Shown piece by piece: positions 48,045 to 61,028 of a DNA stretch of 64,000 bases (positions are counted from its first letter, which is position 1; each line of letters starts with the position of its first letter). Both the position numbers and the translations under genes were made by a program. The notes under the pieces are model-generated. The model was not told where the DNA came from, did not search any database, and saw nothing but the letters and a program-made list of their open reading frames with translations. Origin of the DNA: Sulfurimonas lithotrophica (GTDB lineage Bacteria > Campylobacterota > Campylobacteria > Campylobacterales > Sulfurimonadaceae). Location: positions 496,001-560,000 of the forward strand of contig NZ_CP043617.1 in assembly GCF_009258225.1 (NCBI RefSeq), written 5' to 3'.

Positions 48045-49367
48045 TTATCCTTTCATGATTATAAGAGCTTTGATAATATCTACACTCTCTTTTAGTTGAA
48101 TATCTTTGTTTAACATTTTTTGAGTGATAATATTTTTATCATCAATTTCTTCTTTCTTTTTAGATTCTTCTTTATCGTCTGTATTAACTTTTTCAAGTTC
48201 TTCTTGAAGATGTTTTTTCAAATCTGCTTCTTTAATCGAGAACTTATTTTCATTTGTTTTTACACTTCCAGAAAAAACTTCAATATCCGGTGTTACACCC
48301 ACGGCTTGGATTGTACGTCCGCTTGGCAAGTAGTATCTTGCAATTGTTAATTTTATAGCCTCTTCATCCGTAATAGGCAATACGACTTGAACGCTCCCTT
48401 TACCGAAAGTTTTCTCGCCGATTACAACTGCACGTTTATGGTCTTGTAGTGCTCCGCTTACGATTTCGGATGCACTTGCACTTCCGCCGTTGACTAAAAC
48501 TACTAAAGGTACATCACTGATAGTCTCGGAGCTTTTAGCTCTATATACTTGTTTATCCGAATCTTTTCTACCTTTTTGAGAAACAACTACACCGTTATCT
48601 ACAAACAGGTCAACCAAACCTACTGCTTGGTCAAGTAAACCTCCCGGGTTATTTCTTAAATCAAGAATAATTCCCTTTGTTTTACCTTCATGTTTTTTTA
48701 TAGCTTTTGAAACGTCTTGTTTAACTTTTTTATCAAAGCTTGTAACACGAACGTATAATATATTATTATCTATCGTTTTTGTATATACGGATTGAATCGT
48801 TATGTTTCCACGGACAATTTTTATCTCGATAGGTTTTGATTCGCCTTCACGGACTATGGTAATATCAATCGGTTCGCCTATTTTACCGCGCATAATTGCT
48901 ACAGCTTCATCGATAGTCATATTCAAAGTGGATTCATCATTTATTTTTAAGATGATATCACCTGCTTGCAAACCGGCTTTATCGGCAGGAGTACCTTCAA
49001 GAGGTGCAATAACAGTCAATGCACCGTCACGAATACCTACCGTTATTCCAAGACCGCCAAATTCTCCGTCCGTTTGAACTTTTAAGCGTTTATAATCTTT
49101 AGCAATAAGATAGTTAGAATGTGCATCGAGATTTTGCATCATCCCCGCCAATGCTTTATCCATTAATTCTTCAATACTCACCTTATCTACATTGTACTGT
49201 TCAACAATGGATATTACTTTCGTAAATTTTGCCAAAGCCTCAAGCCTTGAAGCTTCTTTATTCTCTTCTTTACTTTTTGAATCGGCAAAAAGAGTAGTTG
49301 AAAACATCATTAAAAATGCAAGGGCTACACTTATAAAACCAATTGTCATAAACTTTTTGTTTTTCAT
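48045..49367 (-). CDS. C-terminal processing protease (S41, CtpA family)
   Basis: A 440-residue exported serine protease with a signal peptide (about 1-28), a PDZ domain (about 95-180, FGGLGITVGIRDGALTVIAPLEGTPADKAGLQAGDIILKI) and the S41 catalytic domain. The active Ser lies in VVLVNGGSASASEIVSGALQDH and the Lys in GEKTFGKGSVQ. Such proteases trim periplasmic or cell-wall-associated proteins. It heads the minus-strand operon through purC to crcB. A Lys/Glu-rich low-complexity stretch lies near residue 385. Confidence 0.93.
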   Translation of the reverse strand: MKNKKFMTIGFISVALAFLMMFSTTLFADSKSKEENKEASRLEALAKFTKVISIVEQYNVDKVSIEELMDKALAGMMQNLDAHSNYLIAKDYKRLKVQTDGEFGGLGITVGIRDGALTVIAPLEGTPADKAGLQAGDIILKINDESTLNMTIDEAVAIMRGKIGEPIDITIVREGESKPIEIKIVRGNITIQSVYTKTIDNNILYVRVTSFDKKVKQDVSKAIKKHEGKTKGIILDLRNNPGGLLDQAVGLVDLFVDNGVVVSQKGRKDSDKQVYRAKSSETISDVPLVVLVNGGSASASEIVSGALQDHKRAVVIGEKTFGKGSVQVVLPITDEEAIKLTIARYYLPSGRTIQAVGVTPDIEVFSGSVKTNENKFSIKEADLKKHLQEELEKVNTDDKEESKKKEEIDDKNIITQKMLNKDIQLKESVDIIKALIIMKG

Positions 49368-49396
49368 TGGAAATCCATTTTAAATTTAGAAGAGAT

Positions 49397-49402
49397 ATTA
49401 TA
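49397..49402 (-). promoter_or_regulatory. -10 element for ctpA operon
   Basis: On the minus strand this reads TATAAT in the context TTTTTACTATAATATC, about 30 bases upstream of the ctpA start codon at 49367. It is the best promoter candidate in the gap between ctpA and nosB. Confidence 0.5.
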
Positions 49403-49484
49403 GTAAAAAGATGTTTAAATAACAATTACTTAGTAAATTTTTTAAATTTGCTATATTATAATATGTAATGACAATTATAGTAAT

Positions 49485-49498
49485 TTGATATATCTCAA
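49485..49498 (+). promoter_or_regulatory. Crp/Fnr-type box upstream of nosB
   Basis: TTGATATATCTCAA differs from the Fnr-type consensus TTGAT-N4-ATCAA at one position. Its centre (49491.5) is 22 bases plus half a site upstream of the -10 element TACAAT (49521-49526). With a start near 49533 the centre falls at -41.5, the classical class II activation position. The identical spacing recurs upstream of 58957. Confidence 0.7.
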
Positions 49499-49520
49499 TT
49501 TACTTTTAGATAAAAAGTGA

Positions 49521-49526
49521 TACAAT
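49521..49526 (+). promoter_or_regulatory. -10 element of the nos operon
   Basis: TACAAT in the context AAAGTGATACAATGC, giving a predicted transcription start near 49533 and a leader of about 23 bases with the ribosome-binding site GTAAGGAAAA. No -35 box is evident, which fits dependence on the activator site just upstream. Confidence 0.55.
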
Positions 49527-49555
49527 GCTTGCAATTAATTTTGTAAGGAAAACTA

Positions 49556-50341
49556 ATGCATCCAAGTATTAAAAAAGCAAGAATATTTGCTACGTTGGCA
49601 CTTCTGATTCTTACGTTCGCGTTTACGTTCCCAATGATTTCATTTAACGGTGTTTTAACACAGATTGATGAAGGTAAAGGCAATGAGGTATCGGCATTCA
49701 GTGCTAAAGTTTGGAATCTATATAACCAAGGAAGATATAAAAGTGTGACTACGCCAAAAGAGGCTAGAAACGACCTTGAAAAGATGATAGATACGGCAAG
49801 TGAAATAGGTGTAGCGTCTATGCCTATATGGGCAGTTTCTCTTGAAGCACCAAACTATCCTAAAGAAGCTTTCCCTGAAGGGATTCCGGTATTTTTTCAC
49901 TTTGACGGCTATAGTGGAGAGGTACATGAAATGAACACGATTAACCACTATGTAGGAATGGATCCAATGTGGATCGGTGGTGTGTTTGAGCGTGAAATTG
50001 GTGCATATGCCTTACTTTTATTAACTTTAGGTTTTATATATTTTATAGCTTATGAGAACAAGTATTTAAACTATGCAATGTTAGTACCTGTATCACTACC
50101 AATACTGTTTATAGCTGATTATTCTTATTGGTTATATTGGTTTGGACACAATCTTCATGATTGGGGTGCTTTTAAAATAAAACCTTTTATGCCGACGGTT
50201 TTCGGTGATGGTAAAATTGCGCAGTTTACTACGCATTCATACCCTACAATCGGTTTTTACCTTTTAGTTGCTATCTCTCTTCTTAGCTTATTGGCTTTTT
50301 TCGCAAAACAAAAAGCTATGCGAGAGATGGAAGCCGAGTAA
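49556..50341 (+). CDS. nosB: NosB-like membrane protein of clade II nos clusters
   Basis: A 261-residue protein with an N-terminal membrane helix (about 9-30), an extracytoplasmic loop of about 110 residues and three further helices (about 148-168, 172-190, 224-245). It includes YWLYWFGHNLHDWGAFKIKPFMPTVFGDGK, which I recognise from the NosB proteins encoded directly after nosZ in Wolinella-type clusters. Function is unresolved; it may help electron transfer or cofactor insertion for N2O reductase. Here it is the first gene of the operon; there is no nosZ before it. Confidence 0.82.
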   Translation: MHPSIKKARIFATLALLILTFAFTFPMISFNGVLTQIDEGKGNEVSAFSAKVWNLYNQGRYKSVTTPKEARNDLEKMIDTASEIGVASMPIWAVSLEAPNYPKEAFPEGIPVFFHFDGYSGEVHEMNTINHYVGMDPMWIGGVFEREIGAYALLLLTLGFIYFIAYENKYLNYAMLVPVSLPILFIADYSYWLYWFGHNLHDWGAFKIKPFMPTVFGDGKIAQFTTHSYPTIGFYLLVAISLLSLLAFFAKQKAMREMEAE

Positions 50342-50347
50342 TTTCTT

Positions 50348-51559
50348 ATGATAAGACTATTTTTTATCTTATTATTTTCAACTCTTCTTGGAGCAAATAT
50401 ACTTCAAGAAGCTATTGATAATGCTCCTGTCGGGTCTATATTAAAACTTCCTGCAGGCGTGTATAAAGGTAAGATAACAATAGACAAACCATTAAGTATA
50501 GTCGGTAAAGAAGACGGTGTAATTATAGACGGTATGGGTGAGGGGACGGTTATAAAAACGGTTGGTTCAAACATAACGCTTAAAAACTTAACTATTGTTA
50601 ATAGCGGAGACAGACACGATAAAATCGATTCGGCAATAACGATGACAAATGGTAAGCAATGTGAAATAAGTAATTGTACTATTAAAGATTGTCTATTTGG
50701 TATCGATATGCAAATGGTCTCCAACTCTATAGTTCAAAACAACTATATAAGTTCTAAAGACTTAGACCTCGGTCTTCGTGGAGACGGACTTAGAATATGG
50801 TATTCAAACGATAATATTATTAGAAAAAATTCTCTTGTAAAATCAAGAGATATGGTTGTATGGTATTCTCACGGTAATTTAATCGAAGAGAATTACGGTG
50901 AACACAACAGGTACTCTCTTCATTTTATGTATGCAGGTAAAAATATAGTTAAAAATAATAGCTATAAATATAACAGCGTAGGGATATTTTTTATGTATTC
51001 CAAGGATACCGTTGCAACAGGAAACGTAGTTAAAAGTTCACTCGGTGCTACGGGTATGGGTATCGGGCTTAAAGACGTCTCAAACTTTACTCTAAAAGAA
51101 AATACGGTTATATATTGTGCACAGGGAATTTACATAGATAGAAGTCCTTTTGAACCGGATACGAATAACTGGATAGAAAATAATAAAGTTTTGTATAATT
51201 CAGAAGCACTTCACTTTCATTCTTTAAGTGAAAATAATATAATTAAAAACAATCTGATAATGGGCAATATAGAAGATATTGTAAATGATAGCAGAGGGAG
51301 TAAAACAGATCAAAATGATATAGTTGGAAATTATTGGGATAACTACAGCGGATTTGATAGAGACGGGGATAATGTCGGAGACACCCCTCATCGTGTATAT
51401 CAATATGCCGATCAACTTTGGGTGTACGACCCAAATGTAAAGTTTTTTTACGGTTCACCCGTAATCTCATTACTAAATTTTTTAGCAAAACTAGCACCTT
51501 TTACAAAGCCGCTTTTTTTACTAGAAGATGAAAAGCCAAAAGTTAGATTTGAAGGATAA
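50348..51559 (+). CDS. nosD: NosD, copper-insertion accessory protein
   Basis: A 403-residue exported protein. After a signal peptide (1-15, LLGANILQEAID) it has a right-handed parallel beta-helix made of many CASH-type repeats such as NIVKNNSYKYNSVGIFFMYSKDTV. NosD works with the NosFY transporter to assemble the copper cluster CuZ of N2O reductase in the periplasm. It lies six bases after nosB. A second gene of the same type and length is at 57200. Confidence 0.95.
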   Translation: MIRLFFILLFSTLLGANILQEAIDNAPVGSILKLPAGVYKGKITIDKPLSIVGKEDGVIIDGMGEGTVIKTVGSNITLKNLTIVNSGDRHDKIDSAITMTNGKQCEISNCTIKDCLFGIDMQMVSNSIVQNNYISSKDLDLGLRGDGLRIWYSNDNIIRKNSLVKSRDMVVWYSHGNLIEENYGEHNRYSLHFMYAGKNIVKNNSYKYNSVGIFFMYSKDTVATGNVVKSSLGATGMGIGLKDVSNFTLKENTVIYCAQGIYIDRSPFEPDTNNWIENNKVLYNSEALHFHSLSENNIIKNNLIMGNIEDIVNDSRGSKTDQNDIVGNYWDNYSGFDRDGDNVGDTPHRVYQYADQLWVYDPNVKFFYGSPVISLLNFLAKLAPFTKPLFLLEDEKPKVRFEG

Positions 51560-51561
51560 AC

Positions 51562-52302
51562 ATGGCAACAATAAAAACCGATAGAAGAAAATTTGTAAAA
51601 TACTCAACCCTAGGTGTTTTAGGATTGGCTATGGGTGCCGGTGTGTTTTTTAGTCCATACGGAAAAGTTCCGGAAAACAGGCTTAGACCTCCAGGAGCAG
51701 TCGAAGAGGATAAATTTTTAGCATTATGTATCAAATGTGGACAGTGTCTGCAGGTCTGTCCTTATCACTCTATAAAACTCTCGGATATGGCAAAAGGTCA
51801 CGGTGTTGGAACTCCATACATAGATGCATCTGAGAGGGCATGTTATGCTTGTAGTGCAGTTCCATGTGTACTTGCTTGTCCAAGCGGTGCACTTGATCAT
51901 CATTGTGAAAAACCTGAAGATATTGAGATGGGTATTGCATATTTAGAGCATCCGGATACTTGTTTAGCAATGACTAATACGCCTATCCCTAAAGGATATA
52001 ATACTAAGATGCACGAGTTTACGAAAAATGTAACTAATGTAACTCAGTTGGAATTGGATTTACTAGAAAAACTTGATAGTTTTGAGGGCAAACAATGTAC
52101 GCTTTGTGCAGATATGTGTCCTATACCAAATCCACTTAGTGCTATTGCTATGGTGTATGACAGTAGTGGTGATGGTAAGAAGCCTGAGATTTATGACGGC
52201 TGTATCGGATGTGGAGCGTGTGAGGAAGTTTGTCCGACTCAAGTTCCGTCGATTGTAATTAAACCAAGGGGTACATATGAACAGTATTATAAAAATGCAT
52301 AA
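51562..52302 (+). CDS. nosG: NosG, Tat-exported polyferredoxin
   Basis: A 246-residue protein starting with a twin-arginine signal (DRRKFVKYSTLGVLG) and holding four 4Fe-4S motifs: CIKCGQCLQVCP, CYACSAVPCVLACP, CTLCADMCP and CIGCGACEEVCP. NosG and the membrane protein NosH are similar to NapG/NapH and are thought to pass electrons from menaquinol to N2O reductase. The gene is two bases after nosD and overlaps nosC1 by 26 bases. Confidence 0.93.
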   Translation: MATIKTDRRKFVKYSTLGVLGLAMGAGVFFSPYGKVPENRLRPPGAVEEDKFLALCIKCGQCLQVCPYHSIKLSDMAKGHGVGTPYIDASERACYACSAVPCVLACPSGALDHHCEKPEDIEMGIAYLEHPDTCLAMTNTPIPKGYNTKMHEFTKNVTNVTQLELDLLEKLDSFEGKQCTLCADMCPIPNPLSAIAMVYDSSGDGKKPEIYDGCIGCGACEEVCPTQVPSIVIKPRGTYEQYYKNA

Positions 52303-52888
52303 TTTAATATATGCGCTGATTATTTCAACTATGATTATCGGATGTAGCGATAATAAGCAGACAGAAGAAAAAACTACACAAGTTAAACAAGCAAGTGCAA
52401 GCGGTATAGAGGTAGTGGAAAATAAAGATGCAAATGCTATAAAAGTACAAGAGAAAGCTCAAGATAAAAATCAGAGTAAATCATACTATTTTGATTACGG
52501 AATTAAGAGTGCTTACTCTGAAGATGCAAAACCGGCTAACAGCGACGCATCTGTTCGTGTTAAGCCAAGAACAAATATAGATGCGAACATGAACGTAAGA
52601 AGTCCGTATGAAAAAGTTCAAGTTAGTTTACTTGTTTCAAAGTTATCAAAAAAATTCATTGTTAAGTGTTCGGCTTGTCATAATGATTATGCAAACGGTG
52701 TTATCGGACCGTCTTTGTTACATAAAGATAGCGAGTATATATTTTCACAAATTATGAAATTTAAAAAAGATAAAAACTTAAATGTGCTTATGTCTAATTT
52801 GGTTGAAAATATGAGTGAAACCGAGATAAAAGAGATTGCGGATGAGATATATTCATTTAATAAAAAGATAAACGAGATGAGGAAATAA
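52277..52888 (+). CDS. nosC1: NosC1, monohaem c-type cytochrome lipoprotein
   Basis: A 203-residue protein with a lipobox (ALIISTMIIGC, Cys at about residue 23) and one haem-binding motif CSACH (about 131), followed by GVIGPSLLHKD and a distal Met (FSQIMKFKKDKNLNVLMSNL). It is probably anchored in the periplasm and transfers electrons toward N2O reductase. AAGGGG just before the ATG at 52277 supports this start, which lies within the end of nosG. Confidence 0.88.
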   Translation: MNSIIKMHNLIYALIISTMIIGCSDNKQTEEKTTQVKQASASGIEVVENKDANAIKVQEKAQDKNQSKSYYFDYGIKSAYSEDAKPANSDASVRVKPRTNIDANMNVRSPYEKVQVSLLVSKLSKKFIVKCSACHNDYANGVIGPSLLHKDSEYIFSQIMKFKKDKNLNVLMSNLVENMSETEIKEIADEIYSFNKKINEMRK

Positions 52889-52889
52889 T

Positions 52890-53369
52890 ATGAAAAATAC
52901 AGTAGTTGGAATTCTTACAATAATTATAGTGGCATTAATGGGCTTTGTAGCAACTGATGATGCAGTATATCACGGCGGTGAACACGGAAAAGTTATTGAG
53001 GATATGGGTAATAAAACCGTAAATGCTTCAAGCAGTACTGCACCGGAAGAAAAAGATGACAGAGAAAAAGAGAAAGAACAGCTAAAAGCACTTAGAGATA
53101 AAGCCGGAAATGCAGGAGCATTTAAAGTTTCCCAAGAGTATAAAAGTAAATGTGCATCTTGTCACGGTGTAAACGGTGAGGGTATTATGGGACCTAAACT
53201 ATTTGGACAAAGTGCTGATAAGGTTTATAAAGATTTAGTTGACTTTAAAGCAGGCAGAAAAGAAAACTACATTATGAAAGGTTTATTGATAAAACTTGAA
53301 GAGAGTGATTTAAGAAGACTTGCAGATGAAATAGGTGATTTCCCTAATAGGGCTAAAGAAAGCAAATAG
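52890..53369 (+). CDS. nosC2: NosC2, monohaem c-type cytochrome
   Basis: A 159-residue protein with an N-terminal membrane anchor or uncleaved signal (5-22), a charged Glu/Lys-rich linker (about 45-75) and one haem motif CASCHGVNGEG (about residue 88) followed by GPKLFGQSADKVY. The related nosC1 gene lies directly upstream, so the pair may relay electrons in series. One base separates the two genes. Confidence 0.88.
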   Translation: MKNTVVGILTIIIVALMGFVATDDAVYHGGEHGKVIEDMGNKTVNASSSTAPEEKDDREKEKEQLKALRDKAGNAGAFKVSQEYKSKCASCHGVNGEGIMGPKLFGQSADKVYKDLVDFKAGRKENYIMKGLLIKLEESDLRRLADEIGDFPNRAKESK

Positions 53370-53378
53370 GAGGTAGTT

Positions 53379-54284
53379 ATGGATAAGTATAACAACCGGG
53401 AGACCATTGCCAATAGTAGTTTTTGGTCAACTTTTTTTGATACTACTAGAGACGGAAAAAGAATTTTTAGTTATAGAATGAAAAGATGGATACTTGTAAT
53501 ATCTATCCATCTTTTCTTTTTCTTATCGTTTTTTATAGATTTACAAATGCTTGAAGGTACGTTAAACGGTTCTCGTTTTTTGGGCTTTCACATGATAGAT
53601 ATTTATACGACTATGCAACTTTTTTTAGCTACGCATGAAATGCCCGTAAATATGATAATCGGTACTTCTACTATTTTAATCGTATATGTATTAGTCGGTG
53701 GTAGAAGTTACTGCTCATGGGTATGCCCATACGGAATACTGAGTGAAATAGGTGAAAAACTTCACAATATGCTTGTAAAGAAAAAAATTATAAAAGAACG
53801 TAAATTTGATCAAAGAGTCAGATATATATTTTGGGCTATATTTTTAGTATTATCGGCAACAAGCGGTTACTTGGTATTTGAGACGTTTAACGTAGTCGGA
53901 ATTTTAAGCCGTATGTTTGTATATGGTTGGACTGTTGCACTCTTATGGGTAGTAGTTGTATTTTTAATTGAAGTTTTTTATTCCCGCCGTGCTTGGTGTA
54001 CATATGTATGCCCGATTGGAACTACTTATGGTTTTATAGGTAAAGTTTCAGCTTTAAGAATACAATGGAACGATAACTGTGACAGCTGTATGGTATGTCA
54101 TGATGTTTGTTTTGAGCCGCAGGTTTTAGAGATTACTAAAGCGAAATATAAAAAACAGATTGAAGAAAAAAATATAACTGAACAGTATATTACGGGTGCA
54201 GATTGTACACTTTGCGGAAGATGTGTAGATGTATGTCACGAAGATGCCCTAAAATTTGATTTTAGATTAAAAAGTTTGGTGTAA
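53379..54284 (+). CDS. nosH: NosH, membrane polyferredoxin (NapH family)
   Basis: A 301-residue protein with four or five membrane helices (about 31-50, 95-112, 147-165, 180-205). The CxxxCP motifs CSWVCPYG and CTYVCPIGTTYG are typical of the NapH/NosR family, and two 4Fe-4S motifs follow near the C-terminus: CDSCMVCHDVC and CTLCGRCVDVC. It probably oxidises menaquinol and passes electrons to NosG. AGGAGG gives a strong ribosome-binding site. Confidence 0.93.
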   Translation: MDKYNNRETIANSSFWSTFFDTTRDGKRIFSYRMKRWILVISIHLFFFLSFFIDLQMLEGTLNGSRFLGFHMIDIYTTMQLFLATHEMPVNMIIGTSTILIVYVLVGGRSYCSWVCPYGILSEIGEKLHNMLVKKKIIKERKFDQRVRYIFWAIFLVLSATSGYLVFETFNVVGILSRMFVYGWTVALLWVVVVFLIEVFYSRRAWCTYVCPIGTTYGFIGKVSALRIQWNDNCDSCMVCHDVCFEPQVLEITKAKYKKQIEEKNITEQYITGADCTLCGRCVDVCHEDALKFDFRLKSLV

Positions 54285-54286
54285 TT

Positions 54287-54925
54287 ATGGTAAAAATATC
54301 TAATCTAACTAAGAAATTCGGCTCACACGTATCACTTGACAATATAAACTGTGAGTTTAAAAAAAACGACTCTATAGCCCTTATGGGCGCTAACGGTGCA
54401 GGTAAGACGACTCTTATCCGTTCAATGCTTGGATATTACCATCCGGATGCAGGCGAGGTTCTTATAGATGGATATAACCCGATAACCGATAGAACAAAAG
54501 TTTTAGAAAATATTAGTTTTGTTCCACAACTTCCTCCACCGATAAAACTAAGTATTGATGAACTTATTAATTATATTTCAACAAGTAGCGGCGTTGATAA
54601 AGATTTGATTTTAAATTATGCAAACGAGATGCAACTTGATTTAAAATCAAATATGTCAAAATCTTTTTTTAAACTAAGCGGCGGAATGAAGCAAAAATTG
54701 CTTATTGCGATATCTTTAGCTAAAAAAAGTGATATAATAATTTATGATGAACCTACTGCAAACTTAGATCCTAAAGCCAGAGATGATTTTTATAGGCTTC
54801 TTAAAGAAAATGAACAAAACAAAGTACTTCTATTTGTTACCCACAGACTTGAAGAAGTTCAAGAATTGGTTAACAGACAGATCTATATGGATCTTGGTAA
54901 GGTGGTATCGGATGAGAGAGTTTAA
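54287..54925 (+). CDS. nosF: NosF, ABC transporter ATPase
   Basis: A 212-residue ATPase with Walker A ALMGANGAGKTTLIRSMLGYY, signature FKLSGGMKQKLLIAISLA, Walker B DIIIYDEPTANLDP and switch His in VTHRLEE. It pairs with the NosY permease and NosD to deliver a sulfur species or power copper-site assembly in N2O reductase. It overlaps nosL by 14 bases. Confidence 0.95.
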   Translation: MVKISNLTKKFGSHVSLDNINCEFKKNDSIALMGANGAGKTTLIRSMLGYYHPDAGEVLIDGYNPITDRTKVLENISFVPQLPPPIKLSIDELINYISTSSGVDKDLILNYANEMQLDLKSNMSKSFFKLSGGMKQKLLIAISLAKKSDIIIYDEPTANLDPKARDDFYRLLKENEQNKVLLFVTHRLEEVQELVNRQIYMDLGKVVSDERV

Positions 54926-55358
54926 ATATTATTTTTTTACATTTGTTTTATTGTTTTTAACAGCCTGTGATTCCGAGGTTAATTTAAATTTACAAAAGAA
55001 CAAATGTCCCGAATGTCATATGAATGTTAAATATGCGGATGATTATAGTACGGAGATTAAAGTAAAAGGTGAAGACTTTTATTTTGACGATATCGGTTGT
55101 ATGATAATTTATGCATATGAAAAAAATATAGATATAGAAAAATTTTTACCTAAAGTTTTTACAAAAGATACAAAAAAATATATACCGATTTTACAGGCAA
55201 AATATAAAATAGGCGATAATACACCTATGAGTTACGGTTTTGCAGCATATGAAAATGAGGGAGACGGTATGATATCATACGATGAAGTTGTACTTAAGAT
55301 GCTTAGAGGTGAGCATATGGCTAATCCGAAAATTAGAAAAAAAGTGTTGGGACAATAA
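54912..55358 (+). CDS. nosL: NosL, copper chaperone lipoprotein
   Basis: A 148-residue lipoprotein with lipobox VLLFLTAC (Cys about 17) and a metal site KCPECHMNVK of the CxxCxM type, followed by EDFYFDDIGCMIIYAYEK and TPMSYGFAAYENE, all typical of NosL. NosL delivers Cu(I) to apo-N2O reductase. The ATG at 54912 is chosen because it starts directly before the signal peptide; the frame is open further upstream into nosF. Confidence 0.9.
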   Translation: MREFKYYFFTFVLLFLTACDSEVNLNLQKNKCPECHMNVKYADDYSTEIKVKGEDFYFDDIGCMIIYAYEKNIDIEKFLPKVFTKDTKKYIPILQAKYKIGDNTPMSYGFAAYENEGDGMISYDEVVLKMLRGEHMANPKIRKKVLGQ

Positions 55359-56185
55359 TGAAAAATTTATCTTTAATTGCATATCTGGATCTAAAAGAAT
55401 CTATCCGAGCCAGATGGTTTTTAATATATTCACTTGTATTTGGAGGTCTTATAGCTCTGTTTTTTATAGCAGGAGTTACTGAGAGTCAAGTTATGGGTTT
55501 TAGCGGACTTAGCCGCCTTTTACTTATGTATATACAAATAACTATAGTTATATTACCTATATTTATTTTAATCACGACGGTTCGTTCAATCTCAGGAGAT
55601 AGGGATAATCATATTTTAGAATATATGCTTTCTTTTCCTATATCTTTAAAGCAATATTACTGGGGTAAAGTAATAGGAAGGTTTATTACTGTTTATCTTC
55701 CTGTTTTCTTTGCAATGCTCATTGCTATTATCTATGGTGCGACAATAGGAGCCGATATACCTTGGAGTATATTCTTCTTATATACAGGGTTGCTTTTTTC
55801 ACTCTCAAGTGCATTTTTGGGTATAGCTTTTTTTGTGTCCTCTTTTGTTAAGTCGAGTGAAGTAGCATTGGGTATAGCTTTTTTTGTTTGGATATTTATG
55901 CTTGCGTTTTTGGATATTGCACTTATTTCACTGATGTTATCCCAAAGATTTAATGAAGAGCTTATAATCTTTATAGCACTTGCAAATCCGATGGAGATAT
56001 TTCGTGTAGCTGCGATATCTTTATTTGACCCTGAACTAACAGTAATGGGTCCTGTTGCTTTTTATATTTTGGATACTATGAGTCAGGTTGTTTTTGTATT
56101 GCTCTCAATTGGGTATCCTTTAGTGTTAGGTTTACTTTTTGCCTATGGCGGATTTAAAATATTTAAGAAAAAAGACTTAGTTTAG
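55358..56185 (+). CDS. nosY: NosY, ABC-2 type permease
   Basis: A 275-residue protein with six membrane helices and the early TTVRSISGDRDNHILEYMLSFPISLKQYYWGKVIGR stretch, characteristic of NosY-type permeases. It forms the membrane channel for NosF. Its ATG shares the last base of the nosL stop (TAATG), so translation is coupled. Confidence 0.93.
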   Translation: MKNLSLIAYLDLKESIRARWFLIYSLVFGGLIALFFIAGVTESQVMGFSGLSRLLLMYIQITIVILPIFILITTVRSISGDRDNHILEYMLSFPISLKQYYWGKVIGRFITVYLPVFFAMLIAIIYGATIGADIPWSIFFLYTGLLFSLSSAFLGIAFFVSSFVKSSEVALGIAFFVWIFMLAFLDIALISLMLSQRFNEELIIFIALANPMEIFRVAAISLFDPELTVMGPVAFYILDTMSQVVFVLLSIGYPLVLGLLFAYGGFKIFKKKDLV

Positions 56186-56193
56186 GAGTATTT

Positions 56194-56664
56194 ATGTTGA
56201 AAATTTTTGTTAGTTTAGCAATGTTTATAGGTTTGCTTAATGCTTATGAGATGGATTTTACAAAAGAAACGCAGGGGTTGGTAAGACATATAAAAATATA
56301 TAAAGACCCAAAGTGGGCTTCTAAAATAGAACTTCAAAACGGTAAAAAAGTATTTTTTTGTTCACCAAAATCCATGTTTGAATTTTATTTTCGTCCGGGC
56401 AAATGGCATAATGTCGGAGTAAAAAGTGAAAAAGATTTTAAAGATATTTTGGTAACTGACCATAATACTTTGGAAATTATAGAAGCACGCGGTGCATTTT
56501 TTGTATACGGAAGTAGTGTCACAAGTCCTGCAGGGGATGATTTAGTTCCTTTTAACTCATATAAAGAAGCTAAAGAGTTCGCTGAAAAATATAACGGAAA
56601 AAGAGTTTTTGGATTCCGTGAAGTCAGTGATGCTTTAATTAGATTATTAAACGGAAGGATATAA
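56194..56664 (+). CDS. Second NosL-like protein, without CxxC motif
   Basis: A 156-residue exported protein (signal 1-17, GLLNAYEMDF). The body ends with GDDLVPFNSYKEAKEFAEKYNGKRVFGFREVSDALIRLL, the typical C-terminal half of NosL-family proteins. The metal-binding CxxCxM is missing; its only cysteine is in VFFCSPKSMFEFYF. It resembles NosL-type proteins in nos clusters of this phylum. It may bind copper differently, through Cys and Met, or interact with N2O reductase directly. The next gene starts two bases after its stop. Confidence 0.75.
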   Translation: MLKIFVSLAMFIGLLNAYEMDFTKETQGLVRHIKIYKDPKWASKIELQNGKKVFFCSPKSMFEFYFRPGKWHNVGVKSEKDFKDILVTDHNTLEIIEARGAFFVYGSSVTSPAGDDLVPFNSYKEAKEFAEKYNGKRVFGFREVSDALIRLLNGRI

Positions 56665-56665
56665 A

Positions 56666-57190
56666 ATGAAAAAACCAACTCCAATAGATGAAGAAATAGA
56701 GTTAGATCCTAAGAGATATATCGTAAGTGAAACGGACGAAAAAGGTAAAATTACTTTTTGCAATGATTATTTTAAAGAGATTTCAGGGTATAGTGAAGAA
56801 GAACTTATGGGCTCGCCTCACAATATAGTTCGACATCCGGATATGCCTAAAATCGTGTTTAAGCTTCTTTGGCAAACAATTTCAGCCGGTAAAAATATAA
56901 ATGCAGTTGTTAAAAATATGGCAAAAGACGGAAGATATTACTGGATATTTACGGAATTTGAGATTCGTAAAGATACTGATACGGGAAAAATTATAGGTTA
57001 TCATGCATCCAGAAAAAATATATCTAAACATGTATTAGCCGTTATAGCAGATTTATATGCAAAACTTTTAGAAATTGAAAAAACAGAAGGTGTGGATGCA
57101 TCTGAAAAATATTTAATTAACTTTTTAAAAGATAAAGGCGATGATATAGAATTCGCTAATATAATGGAAGAGATTCATAAATTTTACTAG
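56666..57190 (+). CDS. PAS-domain sensor protein (Aer-like)
   Basis: A 174-residue soluble protein with a single PAS domain (about 15-125: SETDEKGKITFCNDYFKEISGYSEEELMGSPHNIVRHPDMP), like the FAD-binding redox PAS of Aer. The C-terminal 45 residues are helical, and there is no kinase, HTH or methyl-accepting domain. The PAS sequence resembles that of the histidine kinase at 61030, including NIVRHPD. Located inside the nos operon, it may report redox or respiratory state to a partner protein. Confidence 0.82.
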   Translation: MKKPTPIDEEIELDPKRYIVSETDEKGKITFCNDYFKEISGYSEEELMGSPHNIVRHPDMPKIVFKLLWQTISAGKNINAVVKNMAKDGRYYWIFTEFEIRKDTDTGKIIGYHASRKNISKHVLAVIADLYAKLLEIEKTEGVDASEKYLINFLKDKGDDIEFANIMEEIHKFY

Positions 57191-57199
57191 TAGTAAAGT

Positions 57200-58414
57200 G
57201 TGAAAAGTTTTCTTTTTTATATTTTTTTTATTACCGGTCTTCTTGCAAATCCTTTGCAAGAAGCAATTGACAATGCGTCTGCTTATTCAACAATAAAATT
57301 ATCTCCTCAAAACTATAGAGGAAATATTATAATCAATAAACCTCTTACTATTATTTCTACAGAAAATGAAAAAGCTACAATACAAGGTAGTGGATTTGGA
57401 AATGTTATAAATATAAACAGCTCTGATGTTACACTAAAAAATCTTAATATATACGGTAGTGGAGATAAGATGTATAAGTTAGATTCCGCTATCTATATAT
57501 CTAAGAGTTCAAATGTAAAAATAGACGGTTGCAATATTAAAGACAGTTTATATGGAATACATATGGAGATGGTAGAAAAATCTGTATTTTCTAATAATTA
57601 TATTAGTTCAAAAAATCTACCGATATCCCTAAGGGGAGATGCATTGAAAATTTATTATTCTCATAATAATTTATTTAAAAATAATACTATTGAAAAGTCA
57701 AGAGACATTACTCTTGATTATTCTCATAATAATATATTTCAAAATAATATATTTCGAAATAATAGATTTGCTTCACATATTGCACTTAGTCGTAATAATC
57801 TTTTTAAAGACAATATTTATAAACACAACAGTGTCTCTATAATGCTTATGGGGGCACATGATACGAATGTTACGGGTAATACTATTAAAAGTTCCGACGG
57901 TGCGGCAGGAATAGGTGTTATGATAGGCGGTGTATCAAACTTTAGATTTGAGAGAAATACGCTAAAGTTTAATGCAAAGGCGATATATATAGAGTCCAAA
58001 GAAAAAGCAAAAGGTATGAAAAGATATATCTCCTATAACGATATCTCCTATAACGGCGAAGCTATACATTTTCATGTAGCTATAAAAGACAATACAATAA
58101 CTCATAATAAAATATACGGTAATATTGATGATATAGTTAAAGATATAGACGGGCATTTTTCAAAAACGAATGTAGTCGAGTACAATTACTGGGATAATTA
58201 TCAGAGTTTTGATGCAAATAAAGACAACATAGGTGATAAGCCGCATCAAGTGTACCAATATGCCGATCAGCTTTGGCACCATAACCATAAAATAAAGTTT
58301 TTTTATGCAAGCCCTATTATGAGCTTGATGAATTTTTTGCTGAAATTAGCACCTTTTATAGAACCAAACCTTCTAATGGAGGATAAAAAACCTATAGTAG
58401 AGATAGATAAGTAG
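57200..58414 (+). CDS. Second NosD-type beta-helix protein
   Basis: A 404-residue exported protein (signal about 1-16, ITGLLANPLQEAIDN) with the same beta-helix design as NosD. The C-terminus VYQYADQLWHHNHKIKFFYASPIMSLMNFLLKLAPF matches NosD at 50348 closely, so the two are paralogues. It begins with GTG at 57200, ten bases after the PAS gene. The repeats contain many Asn residues. Its own role, in N2O reductase assembly or in another copper enzyme, is not known. Confidence 0.85.
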   Translation: MKSFLFYIFFITGLLANPLQEAIDNASAYSTIKLSPQNYRGNIIINKPLTIISTENEKATIQGSGFGNVININSSDVTLKNLNIYGSGDKMYKLDSAIYISKSSNVKIDGCNIKDSLYGIHMEMVEKSVFSNNYISSKNLPISLRGDALKIYYSHNNLFKNNTIEKSRDITLDYSHNNIFQNNIFRNNRFASHIALSRNNLFKDNIYKHNSVSIMLMGAHDTNVTGNTIKSSDGAAGIGVMIGGVSNFRFERNTLKFNAKAIYIESKEKAKGMKRYISYNDISYNGEAIHFHVAIKDNTITHNKIYGNIDDIVKDIDGHFSKTNVVEYNYWDNYQSFDANKDNIGDKPHQVYQYADQLWHHNHKIKFFYASPIMSLMNFLLKLAPFIEPNLLMEDKKPIVEIDK

Positions 58415-58415
58415 T

Positions 58416-58853
58416 TTATTTTTTAGGTTTTAAAACCCTTTTATATACCTCGTTATAATCAATAACTTCTTCATCTTTAGGTATATTGACTTTTGACTTG
58501 TATGCAGAAAATCCAAATGCCATAGGTGTAATATTTTGCGTTGTATAAAAAGCCTCTCTTGCATCTATCCAAGAACCGTCTTTTACGTCGGTTATATATA
58601 TTTTAGAACTCTCTTTTAGTTCCGGATGTTCCTCTTCAAACCATAAAATCATACAACCTATGTCGTCAAACATATAGGCTTTACCTTTTGAATCTTTAAC
58701 TTGAACCGTATTGTGTCTGTCACTTACGACCATAACGCATCTAGCACACATATCTCTGTCCCAATGTACCTCAGAAACACCGTCATTTTGTTTTTCACTA
58801 CAACCTAAAAATACTAGAAGTGAAAGTGTAATTATATAGTTTAATTTTTTCAT
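58416..58853 (-). CDS. Third NosL-like copper-binding lipoprotein
   Basis: A 145-residue lipoprotein (lipobox SLLVFLGC) with MCARCVMVVSD, a CxxCxM copper motif, and GKAYMFDDIGCMILWFEEEHPELK and TPMAFGFSAYKSK, as in NosL. It is transcribed opposite to the nos operon and ends two bases after the second nosD. Its start faces the Crp/Fnr-type box at 58889-58902. A -10-like TATACT (minus strand, 58860-58865) would start transcription at the ATG itself, so a leaderless mRNA or another promoter is possible. Confidence 0.85.
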   Translation of the reverse strand: MKKLNYIITLSLLVFLGCSEKQNDGVSEVHWDRDMCARCVMVVSDRHNTVQVKDSKGKAYMFDDIGCMILWFEEEHPELKESSKIYITDVKDGSWIDAREAFYTTQNITPMAFGFSAYKSKVNIPKDEEVIDYNEVYKRVLKPKK

Positions 58854-58956: not shown

Positions 58957-59394
58957 ATGAAAAACTTATTTTTAATACTTTCTATATTAGTCTCAATAAC
59001 AATTGCTGAAGAAACACCTACACGAACAGGCGAGTTTCCAAAAGAGCAGATGAAAATTCAGGCAAAAGAGATTGCTCAACGTGCAGCATATTCTATGAAT
59101 GAAGGGCTTCCTCAAACTATTGACAAATATACAGAACTAATAAGTGTTAAAGCAGAAAATACTACTATGGTTTTTACCTTTGAGATTAATACGGGTGCCA
59201 AGAGTGACGAGGCAGTAAGAAAAGAGGATCACTCCAGAATGCAAAAAGCTGTAACCGTTGGTGTGTGTCAACAATCACAAAAGTTTTTAGAATCGGGCAT
59301 AAACACTTCATATGTATATACAAGTGCAAAAACTAAAAAACTACTGTTTAAATTTGATATTTCTCAGGATAAGTGTAAGGGTCTTGTAAATTAA
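58957..59394 (+). CDS. Small exported protein of unknown function
   Basis: A 145-residue protein with a signal peptide (1-17, ISITIA-type ending before EETPTRTGEF) and two cysteines in the mature part (VGVCQQSQKF and QDKCKGLVN) that could form a disulfide in the periplasm. The rest is alpha/beta with no recognised domain. It is the first gene of the operon controlled by the Crp/Fnr-type box, nine bases before the Crp/Fnr gene. It may sense or bind a ligand; this is speculative. Confidence 0.65.
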   Translation: MKNLFLILSILVSITIAEETPTRTGEFPKEQMKIQAKEIAQRAAYSMNEGLPQTIDKYTELISVKAENTTMVFTFEINTGAKSDEAVRKEDHSRMQKAVTVGVCQQSQKFLESGINTSYVYTSAKTKKLLFKFDISQDKCKGLVN

Positions 59395-59403
59395 GGTAAT
59401 ATT

Positions 59404-60066
59404 TTGTCAATAAAAGAGATAGTGAAATCACTTAGCTTTTTTTCATCGCTAAATGATGAAGATGTTGAAAAAATATGTACTATTTCAACTTTACATAAAT
59501 ATACTACAGGCTATGTACTTCACTATGAAAATCAAGATAAAGATTCAATAGAATTTCTTGTAAGCGGACTTGCCAAAGCATATAAAATAGATAAACATAA
59601 AAATGAGATTTTTTTATATCATTTATCAAATGATTCTTTACTCTCAGATATTAATAATATATCGTCAGATACACTTACTTCTTTTTCAAACTTAGAAATG
59701 GCGGAAGACTCCGTTGTACTTAAAATCGATTATACAGAATTCAAACAACAGTTTTTAAACAGTAGAATATTATGCAGCGAACTTATGAATGAGATTATAA
59801 AACGCTCGGAATATATGCAAAATATATTTAATCGTGAATTTATCTTTGATGCAGTAACAAAAGTCGCTAAAATGATAGATGATGATTTGGATATGTTTAA
59901 TAAGATAAAACGACATGATATTTCTTTAATATTAAATATACAACCGGCTACTCTATCTAGAGTCCTTAGTAGATTAAAAAGAAATAACATTATCAGTATT
60001 GAGCATGGAAAAATCGGAATTATCGATAAAGAGGAACTAAAAGCTATATATGAGGAGGTACTATGA
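59404..60066 (+). CDS. Crp/Fnr-family transcriptional regulator
   Basis: A 220-residue protein with a cyclic-nucleotide-like beta-barrel (about 1-120), a dimerisation helix and a C-terminal winged helix (KRHDISLILNIQPATLSRVLSRLKRNNII). It lacks the N-terminal cysteine cluster of oxygen-sensing Fnr, so it may sense NO, via haem, or another signal, as DNR-type regulators do. The start is TTG at 59404. It probably recognises the TTGAT-N4-ATCAA boxes at 49485 and 58889, and would then autoregulate its own operon. That link is inference. Confidence 0.87.
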   Translation: MSIKEIVKSLSFFSSLNDEDVEKICTISTLHKYTTGYVLHYENQDKDSIEFLVSGLAKAYKIDKHKNEIFLYHLSNDSLLSDINNISSDTLTSFSNLEMAEDSVVLKIDYTEFKQQFLNSRILCSELMNEIIKRSEYMQNIFNREFIFDAVTKVAKMIDDDLDMFNKIKRHDISLILNIQPATLSRVLSRLKRNNIISIEHGKIGIIDKEELKAIYEEVL

Positions 60067-61028
60067 AAAAAATTAAAATTGTTATCGCATTAATTTTTCT
60101 GCTTTCAATATTATTGGCAATTATTTTTAGTTATATTAATGAACAAAGAAGTGTTAGCAATAATTTCCTAAACGTAATCAATCAGCAAAAAGCATTTACC
60201 CAAGAGATAGCAAAAAATATTTTTTATATGTATAAAAATCAAAATGCATCGGATAAACAACTTGACGATTCAATTAAAAAATTTTTATCGAATATGCAAA
60301 ATAGAGATAAAAATCTTAAATATATTGATTCTAAAGAGATAAGAGAACATAGCAAAGAAATAGCAGTTTTATGGAATAAATTTTATTTAGAAGTTCAAAA
60401 TTTCAGGGATTTAAATAAGGTTACGGTTGCGTATTCGAATTTAATATTAGAAGAACTTGTAAATAAGATATATAATTTGAATTTAGACTTGGTAGTTGAA
60501 TTTAATACAATGATAGATATTTATCATAAAGAGCTTGAAAATAATATATCTACTTATAGAAATATAGAGTACATCTTATTTTTAGTACTTGTAATTTGTT
60601 TAATATATCTTGTTAGTCAAGTAAAAGATTTAATAAAGTTTTTTCAAAAGTTTACTTCCGCATCAAAAAGAGTTATATCAAATGCAAGTGTTATAGGTAT
60701 CAAAAAAATTGAAGAAACAAAAACGGTAGAGGATGTGGCTTCTGCAACCTATGCTTTTAATACATTGGTTGAAAAAATAGACACTTCAATATTAAATGCT
60801 ACTAACTCCATAGAAAACACATATGCAAACCTCCATACTCTTGAGAACGATATAGAAAATTTTATAGAACTAATCAGTGAGATGCATGACGGAGAAGAGA
60901 TAGATAAAGAACTTACAAAAAAAGAAGATATCCTTATCGAATCACTTGAAGAGTTAAATGTCTCTGCTGAAAATCTTAAAAATTTAAAAAGAGATTTTTT
61001 AGAGTTTGCAAATCAGAAGAGGGATTAA
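60063..61028 (+). CDS. Membrane sensor protein without kinase domain (PilJ/NarX-like N-terminus)
   Basis: A 321-residue protein with two membrane helices (about 7-23 and 168-188) enclosing a helical periplasmic domain of about 140 residues, as in NarX/PilJ-type sensors. A cytoplasmic HAMP-like/coiled-coil part follows (about 190-321, SATYAFNTLVEKIDTSILNATNSIENT). It has neither a kinase domain nor a clear methyl-accepting signalling tip. It overlaps the Crp/Fnr gene by four bases (ATGA) and ends one base before the PAS kinase. It might pass its signal to that kinase. Confidence 0.7.
   Translation: MKKIKIVIALIFLLSILLAIIFSYINEQRSVSNNFLNVINQQKAFTQEIAKNIFYMYKNQNASDKQLDDSIKKFLSNMQNRDKNLKYIDSKEIREHSKEIAVLWNKFYLEVQNFRDLNKVTVAYSNLILEELVNKIYNLNLDLVVEFNTMIDIYHKELENNISTYRNIEYILFLVLVICLIYLVSQVKDLIKFFQKFTSASKRVISNASVIGIKKIEETKTVEDVASATYAFNTLVEKIDTSILNATNSIENTYANLHTLENDIENFIELISEMHDGEEIDKELTKKEDILIESLEELNVSAENLKNLKRDFLEFANQKRD

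Follow-up and report, generated by a model that had tools for sequence, protein, structure and literature searches.

A clade II nitrous oxide reductase system in Sulfurimonas lithotrophica with nosZ located apart from its accessory gene cluster

The window analysed here (the whole 64,000-nucleotide stretch C1:496001–560000 of the 2.38-Mb chromosome of Sulfurimonas lithotrophica) contains a set of accessory genes for nitrous oxide reduction without nosZ, the gene for the reductase itself. This raises the question, put in an earlier note made from the sequence of the window, of whether nosZ lies elsewhere in the genome, physically apart from its maturation set, or whether the maturation genes serve some other copper enzyme. 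The former is the case, with nosZ present as a single-copy gene on the same chromosome, and very probably the locus is half of a split clade II system that arose by a large inversion at an existing boundary between units and by further rearrangement, and whose parts presumably act in trans.

Gene content of the accessory cluster

The reading frames at 49556–56185 (window positions) are nosB, D, G, C1, C2, H, F, L and Y, all on the plus strand and in the Wolinella-type order that the earlier note had given; family models and same-position homologues in relatives confirm these identities. The nosB gene (49556–50341) is without a match to any Pfam or NCBIfam model, and has 54–96% identity to the nosB genes of relatives, which are mostly preceded by nosZ. 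It is followed by nosD (50348–51559; TIGR04247, 419.7 bits, and PF05048), nosG (51562–52302), which has family model support as a NapG-like polyferredoxin, and nosC1 (52277–52888), which codes for a c-type cytochrome with a CSACH motif, a weak cytochrome match, and 50–89% identity to genes at the same position in relatives. Then come a further c-type cytochrome, nosC2 (52890–53369; PF00034), the NapH-like quinol dehydrogenase ferredoxin nosH (53379–54284; NapH/MauN family, TIGR02163, 286.7 bits) and the ABC ATPase nosF (54287–54925; PF00005). The first nosL copy (54915–55358), whose start is probably at 54915 rather than 54783, encodes a small lipoprotein with CxxCHM that has no Pfam match and is 40–86% identical to its same-position homologues, and nosY (55358–56185) encodes an ABC-2 permease (PF12679). 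The locus thus has the nosB of a clade II system together with both the NosGHC1C2 electron transport module and the NosDFYL maturation set.

The nine genes stand as the earlier note listed them, and the region additionally contains genes for a second NosL-family protein (56194–56664, plus strand; PF05573, 73.9 bits), a PAS-domain protein conserved across many clusters (56666–57190, plus strand; PF08447), a nosD paralogue 47% identical to nosD (57200–58414, plus strand; PF05048), and a third NosL-like lipoprotein on the minus strand (58416–58853; PF05573, 24.9 bits). A nosD paralogue and two further NosL-family genes behind the main nos operon recur in many Sulfurimonas clusters. To the right, on the plus strand, is a module found before nosZ in relatives. 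Its first gene (58957–59394), preceded by TTGATAAAAATCAA, encodes a 145-aa periplasmic protein; the second (59404–60066; PF13545, PF00027) encodes a Crp/Fnr-family regulator that is a candidate Nss-like protein and is also upstream of nosZ in relatives; and the third (60063–61028) encodes a membrane sensor-like protein with no Pfam match, which is directly upstream of nosZ in relatives.

Location and features of nosZ

There is no frame of the size of nosZ before nosB or elsewhere in the window, as the earlier note had observed; ctpA lies 188 bp from nosB, and the nos_propeller family is found only outside the window. The family occurs once in the whole genome (C1:1787602–1787814), in an intact clade II nosZ of 871 aa at C1:1786498–1789113 on the minus strand. 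The search of the genome that the note had proposed, for a nosZ with CuA and CuZ ligands, therefore returns a single gene, and it has all of the ligand positions: the HHP, HG, PHG, LH, GH and EPH motifs and CxxxCxxxHxxM align with those of solved NosZ proteins (CuZ His and CuA Cys/His/Met). The protein has nos_propeller, cupredoxin-like and C-terminal cytochrome c (PF00034 at 775–864) domains, and direct reading of its N-terminus (MTKHFGKLSSLILGTTLAATVASAA) shows no twin arginine, which indicates a Sec-type (non-Tat) signal. The gene is flanked by the divergent nrdD and a hemerythrin gene, and is separated from the accessory set by ~1.24 Mb in one direction and 1.14 Mb in the other. A nosB gene directly downstream of nosZ is usual, not universal, in such systems, and is absent here as it is in some relatives. 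By its sequence features the whole is an ordinary N2O reductase system of clade II (Sec-type) with a split layout, not a new system, and NosZ is predicted to be enzymatically active. There is also a nirS-type gene in the genome (C1:314687), so N2O reduction probably completes denitrification.

Rearranged junctions and gene order in relatives

The left neighbour of nosB is ctpA (S41 peptidase; 48045–49367, minus strand), which in nine genus-mates (G001, G004, G005, G007, G012, G018, G019, G020 and G021) faces a hemerythrin gene. Beyond the hemerythrin gene, where the contig extends, come in turn a gene for an NnrS-like membrane protein, aroK, a gene of thioredoxin type, hisD and genes for a ferredoxin/NrfD pair. 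In the present genome it is nosB that ctpA faces, and the same hemerythrin run comes after nosZ; the ctpA–nosB and nosZ–hemerythrin junctions are also present in G015. As two ancestral junctions have swapped partners, in the orientations that one inversion would give, we infer that a large inversion separated nosZ from nosB, with chromosome-wide synteny being drawn from separate stretches. The inversion ends are ~546 kb and ~589 kb from dnaA (C1:116) on opposite arms, as expected of an inversion nearly symmetric about the origin or the terminus. A clean reciprocal exchange is seen for one pair of junctions only, and at least one further rearrangement is needed for those between the third nosL and the regulator module, between the sensor gene and the histidine kinase gene (HK-RR-sir), and between nosZ and nrdD. 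The ancestral block nrdD-nrdG-(sir)-RR-HK is clear in relatives and is the neighbourhood broken here; comparison of the nrdD and kinase loci of relatives gave no single rearrangement step that accounts for all of the junctions. We note that the hemerythrin gene now behind nosZ has an upstream Crp/Fnr-like site (TTGATATAGGTCAG; L025:8300–8501), and nosZ thus adjoins a further gene whose promoter may be redox-regulated.

The usual order in the same-genus genomes compared, which include named Sulfurimonas records, is the gene for the 145-aa protein, crp, the sensor gene, nosZ, and nosB onward. Among 80 loci found by NosB, nosZ is directly upstream of nosB in 64; in seven the contig ends too close to nosB to judge, and in the remaining nine the 3 kb or more upstream of nosB contain no same-strand nosZ. 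One of the nine is G015 (L097), and the genomes of the other eight all have nosZ nonetheless. L101 and L134 (G026) have a common split with nosB behind a different Crp gene, and in G026 the contig with nosB also has nosZ, together with the regulator module, ~43 kb away and in inverted orientation, which is what a separate inversion would produce. In five others (L126, L130, L149, L150 and L155) nosZ is missing upstream of nosB and present elsewhere. A different departure is seen at L138:635–4243, where nosZ is flipped in place and is divergent from nosB, so that the two genes would start from a shared region of ~240 bp. A further apparent split, in G025, is only a possible one, the contig with nosB ending 208 bp upstream of it. 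There are also divergent nos genes in two relatives. The second nos locus of G012 (L095:7364–11240) has NosZ and NosB that are 65% and 55% identical, respectively, and a nosB-like gene and a gene for a haem-c protein precede nosZ, the reverse of the usual order; the only nosZ found in G004 (L006/L068; G004:C7:25991–28546) is of the divergent type (66% identical), with one internal TAG stop reported. Separation of nosZ from its accessory genes may have occurred more than once within the Campylobacterota, with three or four cases as a minimum among those surveyed (a cautious count of independent events, as the other split cases are individually uncurated MAGs), and it could be kept for unequal expression of enzyme and machinery, although we regard this reading as rather unlikely.

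Several other explanations were considered. That the cluster serves the maturation of some other copper enzyme, with no N2O reductase involved, is suggested by the lack of nosZ in the window, but its accessory genes are orthologues of those adjoining nosZ in other genomes, and in its exclusive form this second proposal of the earlier note is ruled out by the intact single-copy nosZ in the same chromosome; we give it practically no chance, and an added role of the cluster for other cuproenzymes is possible. An assembly break or misjoin at 49368–49556, which the note had named as a place beyond which nosZ might lie, would fit with a gene order that differs from that of most relatives. It is extremely improbable, however, because G015, an independent MAG and the closest relative (96% identical NosB), has the ctpA–nosB, nrdD–nosZ and nosZ–hemerythrin junctions inside contigs, and the host genome is in two contigs with 99.99% completeness. 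The shared junctions indicate that the arrangement is older than the strain and is not an assembly fault.

It is also conceivable that the cluster lost its nosZ and that a foreign copy was gained later next to nrdD by horizontal transfer. The gene does stand singly amid unrelated genes, and two Sulfurovum-type MAGs also have nrdD divergent from nosZ (L108:2086–4423 and L113:2893–5245). However, the nrdD genes of these MAGs are only 75% identical, compared with 82–87% within the genus, which shows that no block was transferred, and their nrdD–nosZ neighbourhood is probably a separate event; the possibility that it represents the ancestral state was set aside on the same identity. In both the NosZ and NosB trees the present genome groups with G015 inside Sulfurimonas, with similar branch lengths for the two proteins, and although the trees differ in fine branching and have many weak forks, there is no sign of a foreign nosZ. 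The box upstream of nosZ (see below) also has the form typical of the genus, and the reciprocal exchange at ctpA and hemerythrin would have to be coincidence. We therefore consider transfer highly unlikely and favour inversion and further rearrangement of a resident gene.

Two probable transcription units and comparison with known systems

Upstream of nosB, at 57 bp from its ATG, is a Crp/Fnr-type box (TTGATATATCTCAA; 49485–49498, plus strand) with an exact TTGA-N6-TCAA match, followed by a −10-like TACAAT. The earlier note had nosB following a dedicated promoter instead of nosZ; the promoter-like region is indeed present, but the word 'instead' misleads, as relatives with adjacent nosZ and nosB often have a box there too, and usually a terminator. 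In relatives keeping the adjacency the gap is usually 100–300 bp, and 25 of 58 such gaps have an exact box and 39 one with no more than a single mismatch, where first-order Markov shuffles lead one to expect 0.3 and 8.3, respectively. A strict terminator-like hairpin with a T-run, starting 9–33 nt past the nosZ stop, is in 35 of the 58 gaps (0.85 expected), and exact boxes, mostly TTGAC-N4-GTCAA, are in 35 of 41 regions upstream of nosZ (0.5 expected). The loci are related and these counts do not represent independent events, although the boxes and hairpins differ in sequence among relatives while keeping their positions. The same box sought at the relocated nosZ is present in its genus form at −92 (TTGACCTTAGTCAA), so that the split genome retains both boxes, each of which lies in a putative promoter. 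Past the nosZ stop is a hairpin with a 9-bp stem, which with its T-run some bases away fails the strict terminator test.

The favoured explanation is that the nosZ terminator and the Crp/Fnr-type boxes of each unit had already made two separately controlled units, and that the split was tolerable for this reason. The ancestor would have had the regulator module, nosZ, nosB-D-G-C1-C2-H-F-L-Y and the extra NosL and NosD genes in this order, with nosZ already ended by a terminator and the accessory operon already driven from its own Crp/Fnr-dependent promoter. The nosZ–nosB and ctpA–hemerythrin gaps on opposite arms would have been the ends of a large inversion that separated the units without breaking either, and through further rearrangement the regulator module would have come to lie at the other end of the accessory cluster and nosZ beside nrdD. 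NosZ, presumably exported unfolded by Sec, would then be loaded with copper in the periplasm by NosD, F, Y and L and receive electrons from NosG, H, C1, C2 and B, all in trans, with Crp/Fnr-type regulators co-ordinating both promoters.

An accessory cluster without nosZ does not therefore mean that N2O reduction has been lost. Surveys requiring proximity of nosB and nosZ, such as that in PMC11409646, in which nosB has to be within seven genes of nosZ, will miss clade II systems of split layout. Should the strain reduce N2O, it would show that gene linkage is not needed for maturation, and the genome would offer a natural case for testing nosZ and nosB promoters that work independently.

A limited literature search found no description of a nosZ lying away from the accessory genes, a result that speaks only weakly for novelty, and no nos information in the literature on Sulfurimonas marisnigri and S. 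baltica. The two-unit layout is already known from RNA-seq of Nitrosophilus labii, in which nosZ and nosB are transcribed separately, with Crp/Fnr sites (PMC11539149), and it is physical separation that is added here. As in N. labii HRV44, nosZ and the genes from nosB onward are separate units with Crp/Fnr sites for each, exact before nosB, but nosZ and the accessory genes are drawn there as one cluster and are on opposite arms here. The clade II nos cluster of Wolinella succinogenes, described in PMC6279868 and in Hein et al. 2017 as cited, shares the set of accessory genes, in almost the same order, and a Sec-type NosZ with C-terminal cytochrome c; the differences are that nosZ is not directly upstream of nosB here and that there are extra NosL and NosD paralogues. 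Other Sulfurimonas clusters (e.g. G030, G013, G012, G005 and L104 of Sulfurimonas indica) share orthologous genes, the regulator module and the same kind of boxes, but there nosB comes directly after the regulator module and nosZ.
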